Part shown: piece after piece, positions 47,994-59,347 of the stretch
Layout of the letters: each line of letters starts with the position of its first letter
Numbering within the stretch: position 1 is the stretch's first letter
Source: Candidatus Altimarinota bacterium
Lineage (GTDB): Bacteria; Patescibacteriota; Gracilibacteria; BD1-5; UBA6164
Assembly (NCBI GenBank): GCA_028713225.1
Contig: JAQTOS010000006.1
Location: forward strand, 1 to 64,000
Length of the DNA stretch: 64,000 nucleotides
Direction: 5' to 3'
Notes under the pieces: generated by a model
Told to the model about the DNA's origin: nothing
Database searches by the model: none
The model's input: the letters and a program-made list of their open reading frames with translations, nothing else
Position numbers and translations under genes: made by a program

Positions 47994-48106
47994 TCCCTAC
48001 GGATGTGAATATTTTCATTACAAAAAAAATCAACTCCGTAGGGAATGAATATTTTCATTCCGAAAAAAGATTGAATAAAAAAGGAACGATAATAATCGTT
48101 CCCTAC
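47994..48106. repeat. Three REP copies after rsmE
   Basis: Copy 1 is degenerate (CCCTACGGATGTGAATATTTTCATTA, 47994-48020 region); copy 2 is CCGTAGGGAATGAA/TTCATTCC (48036-48062); copy 3 is GGAACGAT/ATCGTTCCCTAC (48083-48106). Orientations alternate, as in BIME clusters, and stem changes are compensatory between copies. Confidence 0.85.
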
Positions 48107-50138: not shown

Positions 50139-51221
50139 ATGGAACCTGTAAAAATTGGAAAATGGCCAATTAAAATTCCTATTATCCAAGGTGGTATGGG
50201 AGTTGGTATCAGCTGGGATGGACTAGCCGGTGCTGTAAGTATAAATGGTGGACTTGGAGTAATTAGTTCCGTTGGGACTGGCTATTACCAATTCCCTAAA
50301 TTTGCAGGAAAATTAATTAATGGAAGACCTAATGATGAAAATTTTTGCTCATCTGAGGCTCTGAAAGAGATTTTCAAAAATGCTCGTAAAAAATGTGGTG
50401 ATGCTCCTCTTGCTACAAATATTATGCACGCACTTACTGACTTTAAAGCAGGAGTGATTTCAGCATGTGAGGCTGGAACAAATATTATCATTTCTGGTGC
50501 TGGTTTAGCAACATCTCTTCCTGAATATACAAAAGATTATCCAGATGTAGCACTTGTTCCGATTATTTCAAGTGCACAAGCTGCGAAAATTTTTTGTAAA
50601 AAATGGTCGAAAAGTTACAGCCGACTTCCTGATGCATTTATTGTTGAAGGACCTAAAAGCGGTGGGCATCAAGGTTTTGCTTTTGAGGATTGTGAAAAGC
50701 CTGAATATCAACTCGAAGCAATTATTCCAGAAATTTTGGAAGAAGTTGCAAAATGGGGAGAAATTCCTGTATTTGCAGCCGGTGGAATCTGGGATAAAGC
50801 GGATATCGATAAATTCATTGAAATGGGATGTGTTGGTGTACAAATGGGTACTCGCTTCATAGCTACACATGAATGCGATGCTCCAGAATACTACAAGCAG
50901 CTTCTTATTGCTTCAAATGAAAATGATATCGTTCTTGGCGAAAGTCCTGTCGGTTTACCAAGTCGCAGACTCTACACAAATTTACATAAACTTATGGCAC
51001 GAGAAAAGGCACCAAAAATTGCCTGTATCTCAAATTGCGTAAGCGCATGTAAACATGGAGAAGGAGCAAAAAAAGTAAAATACTGTATCGCAGATAGACT
51101 TGCTGATGCAATTATGGACAAACGCGAAACAGGTCTTTATTTTACCGGAACAAATGGTTATAGAGTAAATGAAATTATCTCTGTACATGAACTTCTACAA
51201 AAACTCACGCAAGGAGAGTAA
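50139..51221 (+). CDS. NAD(P)H-dependent flavin oxidoreductase (nitronate monooxygenase family), likely acquired
   Basis: 360 residues, TIM-barrel FMN enzyme. IPIIQGGMGVGISWDGLAGA is the N-terminal signature; GPKSGGHQGF binds FMN with the conserved His; VFAAGGIWDKADIDKFIEMG then GVQMGTRFIATHEC is the phosphate-binding end. Relatives oxidise nitronates or act as FabK-like enoyl-ACP reductases; no fatty-acid genes adjoin. About forty glycines are all GGN and none TGA. Arg and Leu codons include CGC, CGT and CTC, rare in neighbours. An AAGGAG Shine-Dalgarno lies 12 bases before the ATG. These point to recent transfer from a standard-code bacterium. The stop is TAA, so it reads correctly in both codes. 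Confidence 0.93.
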   Translation: MEPVKIGKWPIKIPIIQGGMGVGISWDGLAGAVSINGGLGVISSVGTGYYQFPKFAGKLINGRPNDENFCSSEALKEIFKNARKKCGDAPLATNIMHALTDFKAGVISACEAGTNIIISGAGLATSLPEYTKDYPDVALVPIISSAQAAKIFCKKWSKSYSRLPDAFIVEGPKSGGHQGFAFEDCEKPEYQLEAIIPEILEEVAKWGEIPVFAAGGIWDKADIDKFIEMGCVGVQMGTRFIATHECDAPEYYKQLLIASNENDIVLGESPVGLPSRRLYTNLHKLMAREKAPKIACISNCVSACKHGEGAKKVKYCIADRLADAIMDKRETGLYFTGTNGYRVNEIISVHELLQKLTQGE

Positions 51222-56057: not shown

Positions 56058-56356
56058 AAAGGTAGGAGTTAATGTTTACAAATATTAATACGGAGATTGT
56101 GTTATTTGGTGACAAGATTATATTCAATTTTAAAATATATCCAAAAATACGTGATTATTTGAATATATTGTTTACATCATCCTCCCATTTTAAAGGATTA
56201 TCAAGGATATATTGCCTTGTTTTTTCTAATTGGTCATCGTTTTTTATAAGGATATCGTAAAATGATTTTTGCCAGGAAAATTGGAAATCATTGTATTGGT
56301 TTCTTATTTCTTTTGTACATCAAATTTTAAATCATTTAATTATATTTGAAAGATTT

Positions 56357-56382
56357 GGTAGGGAACGAATATTTTCGTTCCT
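56357..56382. repeat. REP copy inside the transposase gene (1)
   Basis: GGTAGGGAACGAATATTTTC then GTTCC; same hairpin as the family, read in frame by the transposase gene. Confidence 0.9.
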
Positions 56383-56471
56383 ATTGTTTTGATTTACATT
56401 ATTTTCATCTCCATTGTTTTGTTTTCCATTATTTTTGTACGTATTATTATTTTGATTTTGATTTCAAATAC

Positions 56472-56500
56472 AGGAACGAAAATATTCGTTCCCTACGGGG
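56472..56500. repeat. REP copy inside the transposase gene (2)
   Basis: GGAACGAA / TTCGTTCC followed by CTACGG; inverted relative to the first copy. Confidence 0.9.
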
Positions 56501-56798
56501 ATTTCATTTCAAAAAATCATTGTATTATCAATAATAATTATTCCGTGAAAATGATTAGGCATAATCATAAATTCATCAATTATAACATTTTGATAATGTT
56601 TTGTAATTTCTTGCCAAGATTTTTCCACAATTAATCCATATTCATTCAAAATCATTTTTTCATCAATTATTTCGCCAAAATAATTTTCTCTATTTTTCGT
56701 ACAAATTGTAATAAAATAAAATCAATTTCTAGAATAATCATAATTTGAAAATCTTAATTTTTTTCTTTCTGGTCAGAAATACATATAATCCTATTTTA

Positions 56799-57193: not shown

Positions 57194-57250
57194 ACTAAAA
57201 ATCAAGACTTTTTGTTTTTATATAGCCGAAATTTAAGATAAATTTAAGGT
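57194..57250 (-). promoter_or_regulatory. Conserved upstream element, copy B
   Basis: On the minus strand ACCTTAAATTTATCTTAAAT (tandem CTTAAAT, 11-base period), GGCT, then AAAAAGTCTTGATTTTTAGT; -10 TATAAT follows 15 bases after TTGATT. Ends 45 bases before the ATG at 57149. Confidence 0.65.
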
Positions 57251-57302
57251 CATTTTCTCTAGCTGTTTTACTAATCAGAAAATGCAAAACAAAAAACAGC
57301 AC

Positions 57303-57326
57303 AAAAAAACACCCCGAAATGGGGTG
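57303..57326 (-). terminator. GC-rich terminator of the TGA-ending gene
   Basis: CACCCC-gaaat-GGGGTG hairpin with seven T on the minus strand, eleven bases after the TGA at 57340-57338. Confidence 0.85.
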
Positions 57327-57337
57327 ATTTGTGTAAA

Positions 57338-57709
57338 TCAGGGATAATTGATAGCTACCAAGTTGATTTCTTTTGTAAACCGACTAATAGTATATTTTAT
57401 TCCGATCTGATCTTTTGTGTCTAGACTGTCATAAAATTTTTTATCAACAGAGAAATTTTCAATCGCACTTTCAAAAGCGATTACTAAAATCCATTCATCT
57501 TCATGGTATGAAATTATTGGGTTTATACCATTCAACATCATACTGAAAAGATTGGCATTTTCATGTTCAGGAATAAATTCTTTTTCCAAGACTATTCCAA
57601 CTGCTACTGCTCTGGGTAAAAAAGCCGAATTAGCGATTAAAAACAATAAAAATAAAGTAGATAATCCGACTAATGTTAGCATCATTCCAATAAACAAATG
57701 TTCTGACAT
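57338..57709 (-). CDS. Membrane-anchored small protein, apparently ending in TGA (standard-code gene)
   Basis: 123 residues in standard code: an N-terminal membrane helix (FIGMMLTLVGLSTLFLLFLI), then a beta-rich domain with LEKEFIPEHENANLFSMMLN and DEWILVIAFESAIENFSVDK. No TGA occurs within it; glycines are GGN. It ends at TGA 57340-57338, eleven bases before a GC-rich terminator. Under the host code reading would go on for 35 codons through the terminator to TAA at 57235-57233. It has TTGACA-16-TATAAA and an AAGGAG Shine-Dalgarno six bases before ATG. I read it as a cassette from a standard-code genome. No family recognised. Confidence 0.8.
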   Translation of the reverse strand: MSEHLFIGMMLTLVGLSTLFLLFLIANSAFLPRAVAVGIVLEKEFIPEHENANLFSMMLNGINPIISYHEDEWILVIAFESAIENFSVDKKFYDSLDTKDQIGIKYTISRFTKEINLVAINYP

Positions 57710-57715
57710 GACGAG

Positions 57716-57764
57716 CTCCTTAAATTAAGTTATTCTTTTATAATTAAATATTAATTTTTGTCAA
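57716..57764 (-). promoter_or_regulatory. Promoter and ribosome site of the TGA-ending gene
   Basis: TTGACA (57764-57759), 16 bases, TATAAA (57742-57737), and AAGGAG (57721-57716) six bases before ATG. Confidence 0.75.
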
Positions 57765-57880: not shown

Positions 57881-59347
57881 TTATATTTTTTCTAATTTAG
57901 TTCAAGTTCTATCATCAATTATCTTGTATCCAAAAGCTAAAAGTTCATCTCTATATTTATCAGCAAGTTCAAAATTCTTATCTGTTTTAGCTGTATTTCT
58001 AGCTTCAAAAAGTCCCGCTATATTATCTGGAATAATTTCATCTTCTTTTTCAAAAAGTGAGAAATCAATTATAGATAATATTCGATTAAAACTTTTCAAA
58101 AAATCAATTGATGCAAGTATTTCTTTTTTTGTTATTTCTAGACTATCTATTTTAGAATTTAGATAAGTAATAAGTTCATTGAAAACACTTATAGCTATTG
58201 GAGTATTTAAATCATCTTCCATAGCATCAACATAATCCATCATAAATCCTTGTAAATCCATACTAAAAGCTTTTGATATCTTATTATTTTCTTCTCACAA
58301 GTTATCATAAGTTCTTTTTAATTTCTTTAGAAGTTCATCTATTTTTTTAATAACTACGATATTTGATTCTAGTTTTGAAAAAGAAAAATCAATATTTTCT
58401 CTATATTTTCCATTTAAGAAGCTTAATCTAATAGCTCTTGTAACTACATTTTCAGGAGTATCTTTGTATTTAGAAATCAAATCAGATAATGTATAGAAAT
58501 TATTAGCAGATTTTGCCATTTTTTTACCGTCTATCATCAAATGTCCAGAATGTAACCAGTATTTAGAGAATTCTTTTCCTGTTAAAGCTTCAGTTTGAGC
58601 AATTTCATTTTGATGATGGGGAAAAATTAAATCAACTCCACCCATATGAATATCAATTTGTGGTCCAAAATATTTCATATTACAAGCACTACATTCTATA
58701 TGCCAACCTGGTCTTCATTTCAAAACTTTTTCTTCTCCATTTATCATAAATTTTTCTTCCCAAAAATTTTCTCCATCTTCTTTTTTCCAAGCTTTCCATA
58801 AAACAAAATCAGATGCATTTTCTTTGTCATATTCATCATTATCTACCCTAGCTCAAGCTTTCATTCCAGCAAAATCTATATTTGCAAATTTTCCATAATC
58901 TTCAAATTTTGAAATATCATAATAAATACTTCAGTCTTCTCAAACATAAGCCATTTTTCTAGTAAGTAATTTATTTACTATTTTTAGCATTTCAGGCATA
59001 AGTGAAGTAACTGGAACTATTTCATCAGCTCTATCTATATTTAATTTAGCAATATCAGCCAAAAAAGCATCAGTAAATTTAGATGTAAATTCAGCTAATT
59101 TTAATCCTGCGGCTTGGCTTCCAGCTATAGTTTTGTCATCAATATCAGTTATATTCATAACAGTTTTAACTCTATGTCATAAATATTTCAAAGTTTTTAT
59201 AACTAAATCTTCAAAAACAAATGTTCTTAAATTTCCAATATGAGCATAATTATAAACCGTTGGTCCACAAAAATAAACCTTAACCATATCTTGTTTAAGT
59301 GGTTTAAAATTTTCTATCTCTCTTGTCTTTGTATTATAAAATTGCAT
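57881..59347 (-). CDS. cysS: Cysteine-tRNA ligase
   Basis: 488 residues. [20 protein letters not shown] contains the first zinc Cys and the HIGH-type motif (H-I-G-N); [18 protein letters not shown] and [20 protein letters not shown] hold the other zinc ligands and the cysteine pocket. The second class I motif reads [10 protein letters not shown] rather than KMSKS. Several conserved glycines are TGA. It lies upstream of nothing coupled; a ferredoxin gene precedes it by 16 bases. Confidence 0.95.

Follow-up and report, generated by a model that had tools for sequence, protein, structure and literature searches.

Background

In the Gracilibacteria, the reassignment of UGA from stop to glycine has been confirmed by proteomics, and prfB is absent (PMC6851277). 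How far a change of code impedes gene transfer tends to be discussed in the abstract; the present locus is one concrete case. The nearest described precedent is a set of phages that are compatible with the standard code (code 11) and predicted to infect Gracilibacteria and Absconditabacteria. These phages carry no in-frame TGA, and where they stop at TGA, other stop codons close behind are found (PMC10746230). Their existence already implies that standard-code DNA enters bacteria with code 25. A further point of comparison is provided by arfA of E. coli and brfA of B. subtilis, in which a terminator or hairpin lies before the stop codon, an arrangement that has evolved as regulation of ribosome-rescue factors (PMC8012679).

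The locus described here lies in a contig of a Candidatus Altimarinota bacterium (GCA_028713225.1), of which a stretch of 64,000 nucleotides, hereafter the window, was analysed. With the code-11-compatible phages (PMC10746230) it shares the arrival, in a code-25 host, of standard-code sequence free of in-frame TGA. It differs from them in that the next 34 codons contain no backup stop, the terminator coming first, and in that a single chromosomal gene is involved, with no phage. It is the lack of a backup stop that makes the gene an instructive case. As in arfA and brfA (PMC8012679), an intrinsic terminator comes before the codon at which the host would end the frame; with the hairpin inside the frame that is effectively read, a non-stop mRNA, dealt with by tmRNA, is to be expected, and a protein made to full length would be hydrophobic at its C-terminus. 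Unlike in those genes, the arrangement arises from a code mismatch, and the product is not a ribosome-rescue protein of ~60-70 residues but a longer, membrane-anchored protein of 123 aa that matches no family.

We see in the insertion a clear-cut if minor example of a process already known, ordinary gene transfer in an unusual form, and no new system. The case combines an empty site, an ancestral stop located from homologues, a visible release factor, a UCA tRNA and a tmRNA, and it yields a testable prediction for a TGA-ended import, namely non-stop rescue or read-through. As the host probably runs past the intended end of the gene, the locus would offer a natural example of a changed genetic code spoiling a borrowed gene.

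Results and discussion

A cassette ending in TGA

The gene, which the initial annotation had carried without a strand, lies on the minus strand with its ATG at 57709, and its product has 123 aa in translation table 11 (Table 1). The cassette reported there was recovered in every part: AAGGAG at six bases from the start, glycines of the GGN type only, a terminal TGA and a terminator 11 nt on. A promoter-like TTGACA-16-TATAAA is also present; our promoter scanner does not list it because it requires a final T in the -10 box. The 35 extra codons predicted for the host's code are borne out as well, the frame in table 25 being open to a TAA at 57235-57233 and encoding 158 aa, of which residues 124 and 145 are glycines specified by TGA.

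Table 1. Features of the insertion and its surroundings, in window coordinates
Feature	Position	Strand	Remarks
cysS, upstream neighbour	57881..59347	-	79% identical orthologue in the sister genome G001 anchors the empty site
Promoter-like TTGACA-16-TATAAA	57737..57764	-	may be part of the insert or of the host spacer
Ribosome-binding site AAGGAG	57715..57720	-	6 bases 5' of ATG
ORF, 123 codons + TGA	57338..57709	-	N-terminal membrane helix (~residues 3-29) and predicted beta-rich domain
TGA, probable donor stop, glycine in the host	57338..57340	-	coincides with the C-terminal end of the family
Intrinsic terminator, 6-bp stem, 5 G-C pairs, 7 T	57303..57326	-	11 nt 3' of TGA, upstream of the code-25 stop
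Read-through tail in code 25	57233..57337	-	34 residues past the glycine at TGA, then TAA; in no homologue
Inserted segment relative to G001	57253..57763	-	equal-scoring borders 57763-57283 (481 bp) or 57721-57253 (469 bp)

All five glycines of the 123-codon ORF are encoded by GGN and none by TGA, an outcome with a chance of 0.019 at host usage. The chance of 123 codons without TGA is 0.014, a test that overlaps the previous one, so that the two p values are not independent. GC3 is 0.26, against 0.13 ± 0.06 in host ORFs, and by codon-usage score the gene would come third from the bottom in the window's set of 44 long ORFs. The codon statistics amount to a modest foreign signature (p ~0.01-0.02).

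The insertion site

In G001, a genome of the same genus, cysS is followed by a spacer that lacks the gene and is homologous to the window's spacer on both sides. When the two spacers were aligned from both ends with one free gap (MAFFT had placed the site badly), the two-flank alignment scored 150, compared with 41 ± 12 (maximum 71) for shuffled spacers. The empty site is that of one sister genome, and the borders of the insert are ambiguous by ~40 bp. Within them fall the ribosome-binding site, the gene and the terminator (~470-480 bp); the promoter is inside only with the borders 57763-57283, and no second gene fits into the ~480 bp. The insert shows no transposase, clear target duplication, terminal repeats or attachment site (the repeat search gave short AT-rich repeats only), and inspection by eye found no attC-like site of the kind carried by integron cassettes. 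These results do not support describing the insert as an integron gene cassette or a transposon.

The 123-codon gene was found neither in 59 relatives nor in the remaining 352 genomes of the class. A class-wide search returned seven weak matches (E 0.0009-0.007), four of which were opened and ascribed to chance: three fall inside unrelated larger ORFs or straddle them, and the fourth is a hydrophobic segment of a small ORF in which the family's motifs are missing. It is possible in principle that the gene was lost in G001 and retained here, a reading that would also need its loss in all the other genomes searched.

In G001 (L024 3264-4464), a DNA methyltransferase-like gene is found downstream of cysS at the place where the window has a 116-aa ORF, a replacement that marks the site as a point of gene turnover.

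A sparse family that ends at the TGA position

No significant family was found with the 123-aa protein in searches of Pfam, NCBIfam, PHROGs and PDB sequences. A profile built from the gene together with two Vibrio phage proteins gave a full-length match (P0005, E 9.5e-17) to a Patescibacterium of another class, whose genome (G455) uses the standard code. This protein, from the lake contig CAIZMI010000021.1, has 144 aa and a TAG stop, and BLASTP (6e-14) aligns it to residue 120 of the 123. The Vibrio phage proteins, River4 gp184 (TAA) and 207E48.1 p0030 (TGA), and a TAG-ended ORF of the Nostoc plasmid NZ_CP151107 also end within a few residues of the TGA position, and the tail that follows this position is found in none of the homologues. 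Identity to the 123-aa protein is low throughout the family (12-28%), and all of these genes reside in standard-code genomes. Because such distant standard-code relatives end within a few residues of the TGA, we take it to be the ancestral stop. The initial annotation had proposed a search of standard-code genomes, which returned distant homologues ending close to that position; close homologues in code-25 genomes with the 35-residue tail, one of the findings that it had named as counting against it, were absent from the code-25 relatives searched.

The members have an N-terminal hydrophobic helix and an [FY]-x-P motif in common and, in most cases, a C-terminal G/S-R-[FI]-[ST] region; there is a weak link to phrog_4392. 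The structure models are of low confidence (mean pLDDT 59 and 56), for which reason only the order of helix and strands was used; in both, a single helix leads and strands come after it, the final one at the C-terminus. The family is sparse and uncharacterised, with one N-terminal membrane helix and a small beta-rich domain according to the models. Since members occur on phages and on a mobilisable plasmid, the gene may be an accessory one carried by mobile elements. A close homologue, which would point to the donor lineage, was found in none of the GTDB species genomes, viral contigs, phages and plasmids. The GTDB and viral contig scans used short patterns, which reach close relatives only, and recovered just the known Patescibacteria and River4 sequences; an alignment of four family sequences was too divergent for pattern scanning. 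The family ORF of the Nostoc plasmid (L021 1405-1791, 128 codons) is missing from the listed gene table of that plasmid.

Genetic code and ribosome rescue in the host

TGA accounts for 3.4% of all codons in the window's 44 long ORFs and for 55% of their glycine codons (601/1098), and is the commonest codon for glycine. The host genome encodes one RF-1-family protein, from a gene that itself contains 15 in-frame TGA codons; we take it to be RF1-type from its PET...HTSAIT region, as set against RF1 and RF2 signatures. RF2 was not found in the genome, which is 97% complete. A tRNA with the anticodon UCA (L048 1625-1703), labelled as selenocysteine by ARAGORN, has an acceptor stem that starts with GCG and ends with CGC-U, as does this genome's tRNA-Gly(UCC), and is probably a tRNA-Gly(UCA) to judge by this resemblance. 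With RF1 only, a UCA tRNA and TGA in use as glycine, the host is a code-25 organism. The components of ribosome rescue are encoded as well: a tmRNA (66.6 bits, cut-off 47), whose tag reads ANNRMYAGLTAFVKKVSTPSFALAA up to its stop and ends in ...ALAA, and SmpB (132 bits).

The terminator and the read-through tail

The hairpin, read from 57326 to 57303, is CACCCCATTTCGGGGTG followed by TTTTTTT, and this stretch has a folding energy of -14.8 kcal/mol (z -2.9). It is one of seven strong terminator-like hairpins in the whole window. Four of the seven lie 3' of long ORFs ended by TAA or TAG (229, 398, 398 and 360 aa), and the present one is alone in following a TGA-ended ORF of more than 26 aa. The placement of a terminator after this TGA is more than chance.

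The hydrophobicity of the tail needs no function, because each of the three frames through the T-rich tract of the terminator gives a hydrophobic peptide (2.38, 1.94 and 2.23), and the observed value is equalled or exceeded in 26% of base shuffles. It is a by-product of that tract, and the suggestion that the tail might form a second membrane segment is not upheld, all the more as no homologue has the tail. When the 96 bp downstream were used as a query for further copies, the matches were all short and T-rich.

Probable transfer and fate of the gene

The empty site, the absence of the gene from code-25 relatives, the ends of its homologues and its foreign codon usage argue together for a donor that used the standard code. 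We conclude that the gene is most likely a single insertion from such a donor into a code-25 bacterium, the TGA being the stop of the donor, and that it is probably impaired here. The arrival proposed by the initial annotation is supported; its qualification as recent draws on the intact ORF and the unreplaced TGA and is no more than suggested by them.

By this account, some 470-480 bp comprising the ribosome-binding site, the 123-codon ORF with its TGA and the terminator were inserted into the spacer downstream of cysS. Since the host has a UCA tRNA and no RF2 was found in it, its ribosomes should decode UGA as glycine, which would place the hairpin inside the reading frame; the components of the host suggest that the ribosome would enter it, and the product would then contain NYPGFTQITPFR. 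Were transcription to end at the U-tract (~57303), the message would end after ...NYP-GFTQITPFRGVF with no stop codon, and, since tmRNA and SmpB are both encoded, its product would be tagged for destruction. Were the translating ribosome to melt the hairpin, transcription would continue to the TAA and a protein of 158 residues with a hydrophobic tail would result. Either outcome would probably leave the gene impaired in this host, as a cost of the code difference that a single TGA-to-TAA substitution would lift.

Several other readings were weighed. A frame open in code 25 as far as a TAA, with a hydrophobic tail, is what would be expected of a native code-25 gene with a real product of 158 residues, for which the tail is useful and the hairpin incidental. 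We consider this very unlikely, given that no homologue occurs in the code-25 genomes searched, that the site is empty in the sister genome, that the family ends at TGA, that the T-rich tract confers hydrophobicity in any frame, and that the terminator precedes the code-25 stop. We would give equally long odds to an assembly artefact by which a stretch of DNA of a standard-code organism ended up in this contig. The assembly has 19 contigs and an estimated contamination of 1.8%, but such an artefact needs two joins in one spacer, importing exactly one gene and its terminator, and both host flanks are collinear with the sister genome within a contig of 126.6 kb.

The otherwise intact state of the cassette, as if it were still in use, could also mean that translation still stops at this UGA in the host, context-dependent release being one conceivable means, and that the 123-residue protein is made normally; a mechanism that still stops here had been offered at the outset as the alternative to recent arrival. 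With a sole release factor of RF1 type, no RF2 found, a UCA tRNA present and TGA as the commonest glycine codon, we judge this highly improbable. Finally, by analogy with arfA and brfA, the mismatch might be put to use: the protein would be made mainly from terminator-ended, stop-less messages, and tmRNA activity would set its level, a form of control that would have arisen in one step, with the move of a TGA-ended gene to a host using code 25. Its chances appear slim, and we retain the insertion of a donor gene that is probably impaired by its own stop codon.

Other genes in the window

The search for further standard-code imports covered the window. A nitronate monooxygenase-like gene at 50139-51221 on the plus strand (PF03060, 1e-70; GC 0.38) encodes 37/37 glycines by GGN, contains no TGA, and has its own AAGGAG, terminator and TAA stop; it is probably another standard-code import, one compatible with code 25. 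An ORF at 279-968 on the minus strand (229 aa) similarly has 18/18 GGN glycines, no TGA, a TAA stop and its own terminator. It matches no Pfam family and has 33% identity over 147 residues (3e-11) to a hypothetical protein of a Burkholderia vietnamiensis plasmid, and it too was probably imported. As both genes end in TAA, they escape the TGA problem.

A minus-strand ORF at 56155-56784 resembles, by eye, a REP-associated (Y1-type) transposase. Palindromes of the form GGGAACGA...TCGTTCC occur within it (at 56361) and near 48104, and are possibly REP-like elements.
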